Source: Sideroxydans sp.
Lineage (GTDB): Bacteria; Pseudomonadota; Gammaproteobacteria; Burkholderiales; Gallionellaceae
DNA: 41,273 nt
NCBI GenBank assembly: GCA_028687425.1
Contig: JAQUAD010000025.1
Coordinates: 1 to 41,273 of the forward strand
Reading direction: 5' to 3'
A model generated the notes under the pieces. That model was not told the origin of the DNA. It did not search any database and worked only from the letters and a program-made list of their open reading frames with translations. The translations under genes and the position numbers were made by a program. Positions 29,965 through 35,584 of the stretch are shown here, piece by piece (position 1 is the first letter of the stretch; every line of letters starts with the position of its first letter).

Positions 29965-30100
29965 GCTGGATTTTTTTTCACCAAAATATCAGAATATGAG
30001 CAGTTGCTAATTAATCGGCATGCGATGCTCGTTGCGAGTTGTGATTTTAGCTGATTTCGGCGGGTAACAAGCCGCCACCTCCAAATGATAGCTGACGAAT

Positions 30101-30403
30101 ATGACGAACAAACTGATCGATAAAGACGAAGACATCCTGCAAGCATCGCTGGCGATGAAGGCCATTGCGCACCCGTTGCGGCTCAAGGTGCTGTGCGTGT
30201 TGAGCGACGGCGAGCTCAGTGTGCAAGAGATCGTCGATAGCGTCGGCACATCCCAAAGCAATATTTCCCAGCATCTCGCCATCCTGCGCGACAAAGGCGT
30301 GCTCGCCACGCGCAAGGATGCCAATCGCGTCTTCTACCGCATCGGCGACCCGCGTACCGTCAAACTGGTGGGTATGATGCGGGACGTATTCTGCTCAATC
30401 TGA
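30101..30403 (+). CDS. ArsR-family repressor with SqrR/BigR-type cysteine pair
   Basis: The 100-aa winged-helix protein has the ArsR core: AIAHPLRLKVLCVLSDGE, SVQEIVDSVGTSQSNISQHL (recognition helix), then the wing residues TRKDANRVFYRIGD. Only two cysteines exist, Cys32 in helix 2 and Cys98 at the end of helix 5, 66 residues apart. In SqrR (Cys41, Cys107) and BigR (Cys42, Cys108) the same pair with the same 66-residue spacing reacts with persulfides and releases DNA. No CxC metal motif of arsenic or cadmium sensors is present. A persulfide-sensing role is therefore well supported by pattern but unproven. It precedes the RND pump in the same direction by 86 bp. Confidence 0.9.
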   Translation: MTNKLIDKDEDILQASLAMKAIAHPLRLKVLCVLSDGELSVQEIVDSVGTSQSNISQHLAILRDKGVLATRKDANRVFYRIGDPRTVKLVGMMRDVFCSI

Positions 30404-30431
30404 AATAATTACCCTACTATTCGAGTGGGGC

Positions 30432-30469
30432 TTGCCATGCATATTAGAATTCGCTAATATGCGCATATT
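30432..30469 (+). promoter_or_regulatory. RND operon promoter overlapped by two palindromic operators
   Basis: TTGCCA (30432-30437) and TAATAT (30455-30460) with a 17-bp spacer form a good sigma-70 promoter. A perfect palindrome GCATATTAG-N6-CTAATATGC spans 30439-30462, covering the spacer and -10. A second perfect palindrome AATATGCGCATATT spans 30456-30469, covering the -10 and likely start site. Such AT-rich inverted repeats over a core promoter are typical ArsR-family operators, so the regulator encoded just upstream is the natural candidate to bind here. Confidence 0.8.
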
Positions 30470-30489
30470 CTTTTTTTCCGAGGTGTGAC

Positions 30490-31527
30490 ATGAAGCTTGA
30501 TTCCCGTGTGTTGTTCGGTCTTTCGGCCATGTTATTCGGTGCTTCCGTGCAGGCGGCTGAGCCGCTGGCGCTGGCACCCGTGCAATATCGCGAGGTGGAG
30601 CAAACCTACAGCGTGGACGGCGTGGTCGAAGCGACGCGCCAGTCCACCGTGTCGGCGCAGATCTCGGGTCGGGTGAAGGCGATCTTCTTCGACGTGGGCG
30701 ACCGGGTCAGCAAAGGCCAGATCCTGCTCAAGATCGACGAGCGCGAAGCTGAGCAGGCTCTGGCCGGCAGCCGTGCGCAACTCTCGCAGGCGCAGGCCGC
30801 CCTGCAGAACGCCCGACTGAACTACGAGCGCTCGCAGGAACTGTTCAAGCAGAAGTTCATCAGCCAGGCCGCTTTGGACAAGGCCAAGTCGGACTACGAG
30901 ATGGCCAAGGCACAAGCAGAAGCCAGCGAAGCCGGTGCACAGCAATCCGCCCTGGCGCAGAGCTATACCTCGGTCATCGCGCCTTATGCGGGCGTGGTAT
31001 CGGCACGCATGGTCGAGATGGGCGAGATGGTCACGGTCGGCAAACCGCTGATGACCGGTTTCGATCCCTCCCAGTTGCGCGTGATCGCCAATGTGTCGCA
31101 GGACCGCCTGAAAGACATCGGTGCACGCCCCGACGTGACGGTAGAGGTGCCCTCACTGAACCGCTGGATCAAGGCCGCATCGGTTACTGTGCAACCATCA
31201 GCCGACTTGCGCACGCACAGCACACAGGTGCGTATCGATCTGCCAGCGAACCAGGCCAATCTCTATCCCGGCATGTTTGTGCGCACCCATTTCGTGGTGG
31301 GCAAGGAAAACAAGATGCTGATCCCGACCAGTGCCGTGGTGCGCCGTAGCGAAGTGGTGGCGGTGTATGTGGTCGACGAGAAAGGCGCGCCCCGCCTGCG
31401 TCAGGTGCGTCTGGGCGAAGCGAATGCGCAGAACGAGATCGAAGTGTTGGCCGGACTGAACATCGGCGAGCGCGTTGCGCGTGAAGCGGTCAAGGCCGGC
31501 ATGGTCGCCTCGGAGATGAAGCGATGA
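30490..31527 (+). CDS. RND efflux periplasmic adaptor subunit
   Basis: This membrane fusion protein (HlyD/AcrA type) bridges an inner-membrane RND pump and an outer-membrane channel. The 345-aa protein has a signal peptide cleaved probably after ASVQA, with no lipobox cysteine. Two half-lipoyl segments (VSAQISGRVKAIFFDVGDRVSKGQ and the later VIAPYAGVVSARMVEMGEMV) flank a short coiled-coil hairpin (about residues 80-150). A beta-barrel and membrane-proximal domain follow (LYPGMFVRTHFV, LIPTSAVVRR). GAGGTG lies four bases before ATG 30490. The stop overlaps the pump gene by 4 nt. Confidence 0.93.
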   Translation: MKLDSRVLFGLSAMLFGASVQAAEPLALAPVQYREVEQTYSVDGVVEATRQSTVSAQISGRVKAIFFDVGDRVSKGQILLKIDEREAEQALAGSRAQLSQAQAALQNARLNYERSQELFKQKFISQAALDKAKSDYEMAKAQAEASEAGAQQSALAQSYTSVIAPYAGVVSARMVEMGEMVTVGKPLMTGFDPSQLRVIANVSQDRLKDIGARPDVTVEVPSLNRWIKAASVTVQPSADLRTHSTQVRIDLPANQANLYPGMFVRTHFVVGKENKMLIPTSAVVRRSEVVAVYVVDEKGAPRLRQVRLGEANAQNEIEVLAGLNIGERVAREAVKAGMVASEMKR

Positions 31528-34500
31528 GCATGGGCGTATCCGGTCGTATCGCTCGCGTATTCCTGCATTCGCAGATGACACCGCTGCTGGCGCTGGTTGC
31601 TATGCTGCTGGGCATCTTTGCAGTCGCTGTCACGCCGCGCGAAGAAGAGCCGCAGATCAACGTGACCATGGCCAACGTGCTGATTTCATATCCCGGTGCA
31701 TCAGCACAGGATGTGGCAAATACGGTCGCCACACCTGCTGAACAAGTGCTGTCGCAGATCGCGGGCGTGGATCATGTCTATTCCGTCTCGCAGCCGGGCA
31801 TGGCCGTGCTCACCGTGCAATTCAAGGTGGGCGAAGAGCATGTGCCGTCGCTGGTGAAGTTGTACGACGTGATCTGGTCGCATGCCGACTGGCTGCCGTC
31901 CACGCTAGGCGTGGCACAGCCCATCATCAAGGCCAAGGGCATCGATGATGTGCCGGTACTGGCGTTAACCCTGTGGCGCGAGCAGGGCGCGGGCAATGCG
32001 GTCGCATTGTCACAGGTCGCACATGCCATCGAGTCCGAACTGAAACGCGTACCAGGCACTCGTGAGGTGAATACCTTGGGCCAGACACCGCGCGTGGTGC
32101 GGGTGCTGCTTGATCCGGAAGCACTGAATGCGCACCAGCTTTCGGCGCAGGAAGTGCGGGCCGCGTTGCAAGCATCCAATGTGTCGCACAGTGCTGGGAC
32201 ACTGGTACAGAACAACCGCGAAGTGCTGGTGCAGACCGGTACTTTCCTGAGCGATGCGACCGAAGTCAGCCAGCTGGTCGTCGGTGTGACCGCGGGCAAG
32301 CCGGTGTTCCTGCGCGATGTGGCGGAAGTACGCGACAGCGCCGATCAACCGAAGAGCTATGTGTGGATGGGCACCGGCGCTACGGCGGCCGACAAGCAGA
32401 TCACTGCGCAGGGTGAATATGGCGCGGTGACGCTGGCAGTGACCAAGAAGCCGGGCGAGAACGCTGTGGATGTTGCCAACAAACTGCTGCATCGTGTGGA
32501 TGAGTTGAAAGGCAGCGTCATTCCCGATGATGTGCAGGTGACGGTCACGCGCAACTATGGTGAGACTGCCAACGACAAGGCGATGAAGCTGATCAAAAAA
32601 CTGTTCTTCGCTACTTTCGCAGTGGTGGCGCTGGTGTGGTTTGCGTTGGGTCGCCGCGAGGCCTTCATCGTGGGTGTGGCGGTGTTGCTGACTCTGGCGG
32701 TGACCTTGTTCGCTTCCTGGGCCTATGGCTTCACGCTGAATCGCGTGTCGCTGTTTGCGCTGATTTTCTCCATCGGCATCCTGGTGGACGATGCCATCGT
32801 GGTGGTGGAGAACATCCACCGTCGTCGCGAATTGGCGCAGCATCAACCCTTGTCAGAGATCATTCCTGAAGCGGTGGACGAGGTCGGCAGTCCGACCATC
32901 CTGGCCACCTTCACCGTGATTGCTGCGCTGCTGCCGATGGCCTTCGTGAGCGGACTAATGGGGCCCTACATGAGCCCGATCCCGATTAATGCCAGCATGG
33001 GTATGCTGATCTCGCTGGCGATCGCCTTCATCGTCACGCCCTGGTTGGCGCACAAGTTCGCGGGTGCGCACCACGAGGTGGTGAAGAACGAAGAGGACAC
33101 AGCCATTGCGCGTTTCTTCCGTATGCGCCTCGGGCCATTCCTGAACAAGGAGCACGGTAAGGCAGCCCGCCGCAAGCTGTGGCTGGGCATATTGGGCGGT
33201 TTGCTGTTCGCGGTGTCGCTGGCGGTGGTGAAACTGGTCGTGCTGAAGATGCTGCCGTTCGACAACAAGTCCGAGTTCCAGGTGGTGGTGGACATGTCGT
33301 CCGGGACCGCTGTAGAGCAGACCGCTGGCGTGATGCGCGAGATCGGCGCTTATCTGGCGACCGTGCCGGAAGTCACCGACTATCAGGCCTATGCGGGCAC
33401 CGCATCGCCGATCAACTTCAACGGCCTGGTGCGCCAGTACTACCTGCGCAGCACACCGGAACAGGGCGACATCCAGGTCAATCTGCAGGACAAGCATCTG
33501 CGCGATCGCAGCAGTCATGAGATCGCCACCTCGGTACGTGAGCCGGTAGAAGAGATCGCCCAACGTTGGAATGCCAAGGTGAAGGTGGTCGAAGTGCCGC
33601 CGGGCCCGCCTGTGATGTCGCCTATCGTGGCCGAGATCTATGGTCCGGACTATGAAGGTGCGCGGCAGGTCGCGACCAAGGTACATGAGCAGTTCGTCGC
33701 CACCGCAGACATCGTCGGTATCGATGACACAGTGAGCGAAGCTGCACCGAAGATGGTCCTGCGTGTGATGCAAAGCAAGGCAGCGCTGCTGGGTGTGGCG
33801 CAGAGCGATATTGTGGACGCAGTGCAGATCGCCTTGTCCGGTCAGGATGTGACGGCATTGCATGCACTCGACGCGAAATATGCGCCGCCGTTACGGCTCG
33901 GACTGGCAGCGGAAAAGCGCAGCCGTATCGATGATGTACTGAAACTCAAAGTGCGCTCGCGCGACGGGGCGTTGGTGCCGCTGTCGGAAGTGGTGCAGGT
34001 GGTGAAGACAGAGCGTGACTACCCGATCCATCACAAAGACCTGTTGCCGGTGGTGTATGTGACCGGCGACATGGCCGGCGATCTGGACAGCCCTCTGTAC
34101 GGCATGTTCGACATCAACGGCAGGACAGGTGGCATGGCGCTGGAGCAGGGCGGCACGCTGGAGCCGTACTTCTTCAAGCAACCGTCCGATCCGTATGCAG
34201 GTTACGCACTGAAGTGGGATGGCGAATGGCAGGTGACGTTCGAGACCTTCCGCGACATGGGTATCGCCTATGGCGTGGGATTGATACTGATCTACCTGCT
34301 GGTGGTGGCGCAGTTCAAGAGTTACGTCGTGCCGCTGGTGATCATGGCGCCGATTCCACTCACCATCATCGGTGTGATGCCCGGTCATGCCTTGTTCGGC
34401 TCGCAGTTCACTGCGACCTCGATGATCGGCATGATCGCGCTAGCCGGCATCATCGTGCGTAATTCCATCCTGCTGGTGGACTTCGTCAACCTGCAACTGC

Positions 34501-34730
34501 GAGATGGCGTGGATCTGCAGCATGCAGTGGTGAATGCTGCCGCCGCGCGCGCCAAGCCCATCCTGCTGACAGGCTTGGCGGCGATGTTGGGCGCGTTGTT
34601 CATCCTTGACGACCCGATCTTTAATGGTCTGGCGCTGGCCCTGATCTTCGGCATCCTGGTCTCGACCGTGCTGACCTTGATCGTGATCCCGGTGTTGTAT
34701 TACGCCACTTTGTACAAGCAATTCCCATAA
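31524..34730 (+). CDS. RND efflux transporter permease subunit (AcrB/HAE1-like)
   Basis: The 1068-aa protein is a proton-driven inner-membrane exporter of the AcrB superfamily, with 12 predicted helices and two large periplasmic loops. The proton-relay pair Asp422-Asp423 is present in SIGILVDDAIVVVENIHRR. The helix 10 position that is Lys940 in AcrB appears to be Arg979 here (GIIVRNSILLVDF). The N-terminus with TPREEEPQINV is common in HAE1-type pumps of environmental bacteria. It is translationally coupled to the adaptor (ATGA). No outer-membrane channel gene lies nearby, so a TolC-like protein from elsewhere must be used. The substrate is unknown. Confidence 0.93.
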   Translation: MSMGVSGRIARVFLHSQMTPLLALVAMLLGIFAVAVTPREEEPQINVTMANVLISYPGASAQDVANTVATPAEQVLSQIAGVDHVYSVSQPGMAVLTVQFKVGEEHVPSLVKLYDVIWSHADWLPSTLGVAQPIIKAKGIDDVPVLALTLWREQGAGNAVALSQVAHAIESELKRVPGTREVNTLGQTPRVVRVLLDPEALNAHQLSAQEVRAALQASNVSHSAGTLVQNNREVLVQTGTFLSDATEVSQLVVGVTAGKPVFLRDVAEVRDSADQPKSYVWMGTGATAADKQITAQGEYGAVTLAVTKKPGENAVDVANKLLHRVDELKGSVIPDDVQVTVTRNYGETANDKAMKLIKKLFFATFAVVALVWFALGRREAFIVGVAVLLTLAVTLFASWAYGFTLNRVSLFALIFSIGILVDDAIVVVENIHRRRELAQHQPLSEIIPEAVDEVGSPTILATFTVIAALLPMAFVSGLMGPYMSPIPINASMGMLISLAIAFIVTPWLAHKFAGAHHEVVKNEEDTAIARFFRMRLGPFLNKEHGKAARRKLWLGILGGLLFAVSLAVVKLVVLKMLPFDNKSEFQVVVDMSSGTAVEQTAGVMREIGAYLATVPEVTDYQAYAGTASPINFNGLVRQYYLRSTPEQGDIQVNLQDKHLRDRSSHEIATSVREPVEEIAQRWNAKVKVVEVPPGPPVMSPIVAEIYGPDYEGARQVATKVHEQFVATADIVGIDDTVSEAAPKMVLRVMQSKAALLGVAQSDIVDAVQIALSGQDVTALHALDAKYAPPLRLGLAAEKRSRIDDVLKLKVRSRDGALVPLSEVVQVVKTERDYPIHHKDLLPVVYVTGDMAGDLDSPLYGMFDINGRTGGMALEQGGTLEPYFFKQPSDPYAGYALKWDGEWQVTFETFRDMGIAYGVGLILIYLLVVAQFKSYVVPLVIMAPIPLTIIGVMPGHALFGSQFTATSMIGMIALAGIIVRNSILLVDFVNLQLRDGVDLQHAVVNAAAARAKPILLTGLAAMLGALFILDDPIFNGLALALIFGILVSTVLTLIVIPVLYYATLYKQFP

Positions 34731-34753
34731 ACTTTATATCAGGAGCTTTAAAC

Positions 34754-34963
34754 ATGAATGCAGAACGTATCGTCCGTATCGTCGCCGGTTTCTTTGTGAT
34801 GTTGTCGTTGGCGCTGGGTGCACAGGCCAGTCCGCTGTTCGTCAGCGAGTATTTCCTGCTCTTCACTGCTTTCGTTGGTCTGAACCTGTTCCAGAGCGGA
34901 TTCACACAAATCTGCCCATTGAACAATATTCTTGCCAAGTTCGGCGTCAAGGGCAGTTGCTGA
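34754..34963 (+). CDS. DUF2892 (YgaP-like transmembrane) protein
   Basis: This 69-aa protein matches the DUF2892 pattern: MNAERIVRIVAGFFVMLSLAL with a first helix, then a second helix FLLFTAFVGLNLFQSGFTQICPLNNILAKFG. It has Cys54 in the typical CPL motif and a C-terminal Cys69. In E. coli YgaP the same two-helix domain is fused to a rhodanese that handles sulfane sulfur, and its gene is controlled by the BigR homologue YgaV. AGGAG precedes ATG 34754, 24 bp after the pump stop. It is last in the cassette before a hairpin terminator. Confidence 0.9.
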   Translation: MNAERIVRIVAGFFVMLSLALGAQASPLFVSEYFLLFTAFVGLNLFQSGFTQICPLNNILAKFGVKGSC

Positions 34964-35138: not shown

Positions 35139-35164
35139 AGCCCGGAATTATGAGGAGTACCGTC

Positions 35165-35584
35165 GTGCAGCAGTTCCTGCTAGATAACCTGTTTACCCTG
35201 TCGATCACGCTGATCAGCGGCTATATGCTGTTCTGGAGCTATTTCGGCAACCGCATTCTTGGCGTCAAGGAAGCAGATACCCTGCAAGCGATGAACCTGA
35301 TCAATCGCAACGACGCGCTACTGGTCGACGTGCGCGAACAAAGCGAATACGACAGCGGTCATATCATCAACAGCAAACTGATGCCTGCGGGCAAGTTGAA
35401 AGAGCGAGTCGGCGAGTTGGAGAAGTATCGCGAGCGTCCCATCATCCTGGTATGCCGTAGCGGCGCGCGTGCGACGCCCATCGCATCATGGCTGGGCAAG
35501 CAGGGCTTCGGCCAGGTATATCTGCTGTCCGGCGGCGTGCTGGCCTGGCAGAAAGCCAAGCTGCCTTTGGAAAAAAAGAAATAG
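35165..35584 (+). CDS. yibN: Membrane-anchored rhodanese-like protein (YibN)
   Basis: The 139-aa protein has one N-terminal membrane helix (FTLSITLISGYMLFWSYFG) and a rhodanese domain with LVDVREQSEYDSGHI and the active-site loop CRSGARA, with Cys97 as the expected sulfur-accepting residue. I chose GTG 35165, because GAGGAG (35152-35157) sits seven bases before it and overlaps the alternative ATG at 35150. Position and topology match E. coli YibN, whose gene also precedes grxC-secB-gpsA. Its sulfur substrate is unknown. Confidence 0.9.
   Translation: MQQFLLDNLFTLSITLISGYMLFWSYFGNRILGVKEADTLQAMNLINRNDALLVDVREQSEYDSGHIINSKLMPAGKLKERVGELEKYRERPIILVCRSGARATPIASWLGKQGFGQVYLLSGGVLAWQKAKLPLEKKK

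Follow-up and report, generated by a model that had tools for sequence, protein, structure and literature searches.

The window analysed here, a stretch of 41,273 nt of Sideroxydans sp. contig JAQUAD010000025.1, carries at positions 30101–34963 a cassette encoding, in order, an ArsR-type repressor, an RND adaptor, an RND permease and a YgaP-like transmembrane (DUF2892) protein. This four-gene order and the YgaP-type domain of the last gene had been proposed in an earlier note on this DNA, and both are borne out by open reading frames (ORFs) and Pfam matches (Table 1). Between the repressor and adaptor genes lies a palindrome, ATATTAG-N6-CTAATAT, through which a sulfane-sulfur-responsive repressor quite probably controls the pump, TolC, the YgaP-like transmembrane protein, rhodaneses and thioredoxin 2. 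The candidate regulon, which extends past the window onto other contigs of the same genome, is well supported, and it suggests the export of some compound by these bacteria once reactive sulfur accumulates.

The palindrome overlies the spacer and -10 element of a sigma-70-like promoter predicted for the pump operon. Because this promoter-operator sits between the repressor and adaptor genes, the cassette probably comprises two transcription units, and a single repressor-pump operon was set aside, as a separate promoter-like sequence precedes the pump genes. The best site in the window scores 33.8 by position weight matrix (PWM) and the second, a weaker copy before the repressor gene, 12.9; the corresponding copy scores at least 8.5 in 18 of 20 genus rows and about 0 in L125 and L163 (rows L019 and L021 not being counted), and is probably an autoregulation site of the repressor. 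A -35-like hexamer (five of six positions matching) is present at 17–18 bp in 11 of 19 pump sites. The -35/-10 arrangement is absent at the 17 tolC and 8 trxC sites looked at, and since it does not extend to these genes, one uniform repression geometry for all targets was dropped.

In the own genome, four copies of the operator word are found at up to one mismatch. One is at the pump; the others precede a TolC-family gene (by 16 bp), a rhodanese pair (by about 31 bp) and the gene for thioredoxin 2, trxC (by about 7 bp). There is no outer-membrane factor gene within the four-gene stretch, and the TolC-family gene that shares the pump's operator word elsewhere in the genome, the sole match at threshold in 21 of 27 genus genomes, may assemble with the RND pump into a tripartite exporter. 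Across 34 genomes of the genus, 131 sites were found vs. 6 for the reversed control. Among the 79 of these that were mapped (75 in other genus genomes and 4 in the own genome), the main targets were the adaptor (19), tolC (17), rhodanese (14) and trxC (8), followed by a C_GCAxxG_C_C protein (6), an SQR-like flavoprotein (3; a weak family match, 53 bits), an uncharacterised 256-aa protein, an AhpD/CMD-like and a CcoG-like protein (2 each), a SoxA/TsdA-like cytochrome (1) and 5 unassigned; one member per target group was scanned against families, and the rest were grouped by eye from sequence.

Because the mapped sites had been selected by the operator word, the test was repeated from the genes, using genus orthologs found by protein search. 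All 24 rhodanese matches had a locus to read, as had 30 of 33 for tolC and 30 of 32 for trxC. Three contig-end loci and one repeat were dropped; the trxC count omits L319, whose upstream region repeats that of L297. A site was found before rhodanese in all 24 loci at up to two mismatches, making it the most constant target of the operator word, before tolC in 23 of 29 loci at up to one mismatch, and before trxC in 19 of 27 loci at up to two mismatches and 24 of 27 at up to three. The putative redox protein of C_GCAxxG_C_C type is a recurrent operator target (L153, 1535–2017; relatives in L135, L166, L184, L195, L205, L275 and L277). The conserved 256-aa protein (L121, 1450–2220; also L160 and L181) has an imperfect operator copy about 30 bp upstream, and its L121 copy has no Pfam or NCBIfam match.

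The word also follows the repressor beyond the genus. In a survey of 150 genomes of the order, with repressor orthologs called at E below 1e-30, the 60 genomes with an ortholog held 74 strict sites vs. 1 in the control, whereas the 90 genomes lacking one held 17 vs. 16. When the own genus was excluded, a site was present in 36 of 57 repressor-positive and 14 of 90 repressor-negative genomes (p 4e-9).

The repressor contains two cysteines only, Cys32 and Cys98, 66 residues apart, which align with cysteines of BigR, SqrR, HlyU and YgaV at a spacing equal to that of SqrR, BigR and YgaV; cysteine count and alignment agree with the SqrR/BigR-like pair described in the earlier note. Its structural model (predicted local distance difference test, pLDDT, 88) has HlyU, SqrR and BigR as top structural matches, the fold being closest to the solved persulfide-sensing members, and identity to YgaV or to the BigR/HlyU-like rows of other loci is 29–35%. 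Homology, fold and, above all, regulon content support a sensor of the sulfane-sulfur type, so that the SqrR/BigR-type assignment of the note holds in this respect, though the protein belongs to a clade of its own and misses the BigR equivalog cut-off. That clade is recovered in two tree builds (99/99 and 100/100). The first included a long row that was badly placed, that of E. coli ArsR, and here the clade leans to the metal side (83/81); in the second, which has fewer rows (E. coli ArsR, SrnR and Rv0081 among those removed), it leans to the persulfide side (85/80). A position inside a metal-sensing clade, which the earlier note had named as refuting its reading, did not emerge, but the tree is weak, its two builds leaning opposite ways.

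The permease identified 110 pump loci, in 106 of which the adaptor was recognised. A repressor of the same type lies upstream of adaptor and permease on the same strand in at least 29 of the 110, the window copy included (a lower bound, many loci ending early; some loci possibly represent one genome met twice), with a largest repressor-adaptor gap of 1069 bp (L041) and the cysteine pair kept in 29 of 29. Because the repressor-adaptor-permease order recurs in this way with the pair intact, the pairing of repressor and pump is not chance. The word ATTAG-N6-CTAAT is found in the repressor-adaptor gap of 24 of these 29 loci (missing in L013, L014, L032, L034 and L039). As this repressor type accompanies 29 of 110 pump loci only, the pump clade is wider than its control; a few pump loci have other BigR/HlyU-like neighbours, and in other lineages the pump neighbours include rhodanese and DUF2892 genes, the latter counted only for ORFs outside the permease (shadow frames of which were excluded). 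An independent link to thioredoxin is seen in L058, from a Burkholderiales metagenome-assembled genome, where a TrxC-like ORF, recognised by eye, directly precedes the pump, occupying the DNA from 9 to 461 bp before the adaptor.

The surroundings of the repressor point to how the cassette may have arisen. Forty of the 60 order repressor loci were read for their neighbourhood (grx and secB rows being left out), and gpmI was found upstream of the repressor in 27 of them, within the 1.5 kb examined. The same pump follows the repressor in 10 of the 40, and in four others (L211, L212, L217 and L218) a different RND operon takes its place, starting in L212 and L218, where the permease is 38–39% identical, with a long ORF resembling an outer-membrane factor (by eye), and preceded by an operator site in three of four, L217 having none above threshold. 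In eight loci a YibN-like rhodanese directly follows the repressor with no pump, and in L213 the DUF2892 gene alone stands between repressor and rhodanese. From these arrangements we infer that an older repressor-rhodanese pair has at least twice received an RND pump between its two genes, each time in the same chromosomal place. Both cysteines are present in all 14 order loci with a pump; Cys32 is lost, with Cys98 kept, in 7 of the 26 without one (Tyr in L226, L231 and L242, Ser in L235, L236 and L238, Ala in L239), all in other families of the order. The confinement of Cys32 loss to pump-free loci (7/26 vs. 0/14) is suggestive only, and these orthologs are natural candidates for a repressor working without bridge formation. 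A TrxC-like gene lies about 450–480 bp downstream of the Cys32-less repressor in L231 and L242.

In the mechanism proposed, the 100-aa protein would be a sulfane-sulfur-responsive repressor of SqrR/BigR/HlyU type, in a subfamily of its own, whose reduced dimer would bind the palindrome. At the pump and rhodanese genes the bound dimer would keep RNA polymerase from the promoter; at tolC and trxC it would lie immediately upstream of the ribosome site. A rise in persulfide or polysulfide would create a Cys32–Cys98 bridge, releasing the repressor from DNA; this chemistry is transferred from characterised homologues, which form a tetrasulfide bridge (section 2.1 of PMC12423496). Derepression would raise production of the RND pump and TolC, the YgaP-like transmembrane protein, rhodaneses and thioredoxin 2, and sulfane sulfur would thereby be handed on, reduced and/or cleared by export of its products. 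Passage of thiocyanate has been suggested for the YgaP transmembrane domain (PMC4730233), a lead for its lone relative here. A doubtful though conceivable extension is that the RND pump, TolC and YgaP-like protein make up a dedicated export route for persulfides, polysulfides or their products, a distinct ArsR subfamily co-regulating them with a rhodanese/thioredoxin branch and pumps having been recruited at least twice at the same spot.

Several points weigh against this account. What can be read from the sequence are the genes and a palindrome that recurs and that occurs together with the repressor; DNA binding, the chemical inducer, the cysteine bridge, tripartite assembly and the pump substrate are all inferred. 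Sites before orthologous genes of related genomes cannot be counted as independent, and 21 of the 60 repressor-positive genomes have no strict site. No site was found at 2 of 27 trxC and 6 of 29 tolC loci; in at least four of these six, another tolC copy in the genome has a site, and the remaining two, L363 and L364, also have a second copy. Three sites, including one before tolC, occur in genome G146 of the same family, which has no repressor ortholog (best match 24% identity); nor was the pump found there at the thresholds used, in a search run without a positive control. The repressor scores 78.8 bits on the NCBIfam BigR equivalog NF040642, below its cut-off of 155, and the tree, weak as it is, leaves the sensor's clade undecided. 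Among the pump loci, 16 of 110 have a divergent ArsR without the cysteine pair (L060, L062, L073, L077, L078, L079, L082, L083, L085, L088, L089, L093, L098, L101, L102 and L027, the last cut short), which carries a CDLVC- or CELVC-like motif in its last helix and whose best PDB match, for L078, is SmtB (45.7 bits); some 60 of 110 have neither repressor type within the DNA examined.

Sulfane sulfur may be the signal only, the pump being a general exporter of drugs or lipophiles whose cargo is not a sulfur compound. The regulon would be the same, so that this possibility overlaps with a sulfane-sulfur-responsive repressor, and its chances fall only somewhat short of even. The pump clade is widespread and also found under another ArsR type, the single regulon TolC of most genus genomes could serve several pumps, and in Pseudomonas MexR provides a precedent, relief of the repressor by sulfane sulfur reportedly turning on the RND pump MexAB (PMC8614764); the sulfur-linked neighbours of the pump elsewhere (DUF2892 and rhodanese genes, and the TrxC-like ORF of L058) speak against it.

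A general thiol-redox or electrophile switch, forming a disulfide with peroxide, hypochlorous acid (HOCl) or organics rather than responding selectively to sulfane sulfur, is improbable. The same dithiol could form a disulfide, and thioredoxin, AhpD/CMD-like and C_GCAxxG_C_C genes are among the targets, but the most constant of these is rhodanese, and the SQR-like and SoxA/TsdA-like targets point to sulfur. Much less probable still is a sensor of metals, metalloids or organotin over a metal-efflux RND pump. Metal-sensing ArsR/SmtB proteins have site motifs of CxC in alpha3 or D-x-H...H in alpha5. The repressor segments read for these motifs, ELSVQEIVD and DPRTVKLVGMMRDVFCSI, lack both the CxC of the alpha3 region and the D-x-H/H site of the last helix; the sequence match is better to BigR (68.6 bits) than to SmtB (38.2), and the candidate regulon includes rhodaneses and thioredoxin. 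In favour of a metal sensor, HTH_metalloreg is the top NCBIfam family of the repressor (87.3 bits, cut-off 55), an approximately unbiased (AU) test does not reject a clade with SmtB, NmtR and CzrA (p 0.33), and E. coli ygaVP is described as derepressed by tributyltin (PMC9774250). A pyrite transcriptome paper (PMC11267869) that seemed pertinent deals with metal-efflux RND genes. That the palindrome is instead the transcription terminator of the repressor gene is barely credible and is contradicted by its recurrence before unrelated genes: a T run follows the stem, and 30438–30463 has a terminator-like score, but the stem has just three G-C pairs and the word tracks the repressor across genomes; on other contigs it precedes tolC, rhodanese and trxC genes, in each case by a fixed distance.

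The sulfane-sulfur-responsive repressor favoured here resembles SqrR of Rhodobacter capsulatus, BigR of Xylella and Acinetobacter, YgaV of E. coli and HlyU in its aligned cysteine pair, its fold, and the rhodanese and other sulfur targets of its regulon. The SqrR site, ATTC-N8-GAAT, and the operator described here have a common ATT-N10-AAT core palindrome, and the YgaV footprint covers YgaV's own promoter, as the operator does at the pump (PMC9774250). Unlike in these systems, the half-site is ATATTAG, the repressor forms its own clade, and the candidate regulon adds an RND pump and tolC. In E. coli ygaVP a SqrR/BigR homologue likewise adjoins a YgaP transmembrane domain, but YgaP has a rhodanese domain, whereas here the transmembrane protein stands alone and the pump lies between its gene and the repressor. 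RND pumps adjoining sulfane-sulfur ArsR regulators have been reported (Li et al., 2025; PMC12423496), the same pairing being deduced there from gene neighbourhood with two cysteines required; its section 2.1 names neither an operator or regulon nor an outer-membrane partner for these pumps. MexR and MarR, both linked to sulfane-sulfur signalling in other work, are regulators of the MarR family rather than ArsR, and the accessible text mentions no operator common to the rhodanese, tolC and trxC genes (PMC8614764). In view of both precedents, the "distinct system" of the earlier note was overstated: pumps beside such sensors are known, and new in the present analysis are the operator, its candidate regulon and the connection to TolC. 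The accessible literature, which comprised few subscription papers and no supplements, holds no account of the operator, of a regulon for this repressor subfamily or of tolC and trxC membership.

Removal of excess sulfane sulfur in bacteria has so far been described mostly as enzymology, by oxidation, transfer or reduction. With a conserved operator that connects rhodaneses and thioredoxin with an RND pump and TolC, export can be tested as a component of sulfane-sulfur defence, here in the setting of iron- and sulfur-oxidising bacteria, and the link between multidrug-type pumps and reactive sulfur is given a natural reason. The operator word also provides a ready regulon map for genomes with this repressor.

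Table 1. Features of the cassette and its flanks, in window coordinates.
Feature	Position	Strand	Details
Weaker operator copy, 3 mismatches	29994..30013		PWM score 12.9; ~87 bp upstream of repressor start
ArsR-type repressor, 100 aa, Cys32/Cys98	30101..30403	+	Pfam HTH_5 52.7 bits, above cut-off
Sigma-70-like promoter TTGCCA-17-TAATAT of pump operon	30432..30460	+	1 found, 0.7 expected in shuffles
Operator palindrome ATATTAGAATTCGCTAATAT	30441..30460		Predicted; ATATTAG-N6-CTAATAT between repressor and adaptor
RND periplasmic adaptor, 345 aa	30490..31527	+	Pfam HlyD_D23 77.6 bits, above cut-off; NCBIfam RND_mfp 216 bits, cut-off 94.9
RND permease, HAE-like, 1068 aa	31524..34730	+	Pfam ACR_tran 494.5 bits, above cut-off
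YgaP-like transmembrane (DUF2892) protein, 69 aa, without rhodanese domain	34754..34963	+	PF11127 49.8 bits, cut-off 25.3
Transmembrane-anchored rhodanese (YibN-like), downstream neighbour of cassette	35150..35584	+	Pfam Rhodanese 63.6 bits

The start of the permease ORF overlaps the end of the adaptor by 4 nt. ACR_tran is matched at full length, residues 18–1060 corresponding to model positions 11–1018 of 1021, as for an RND permease of HAE type; the protein is below every NCBIfam subfamily cut-off (best 436 of 1250), and its closest solved chain is 8gjj (223 bits), the best seven including MexK and MdtB. Solved relatives of the DUF2892 protein were not found at E 1 or better. In G146, an ORF at L376, 1090–1767, read by eye, apparently fuses an ArsR-type helix-turn-helix (HTH) to a rhodanese-like domain.

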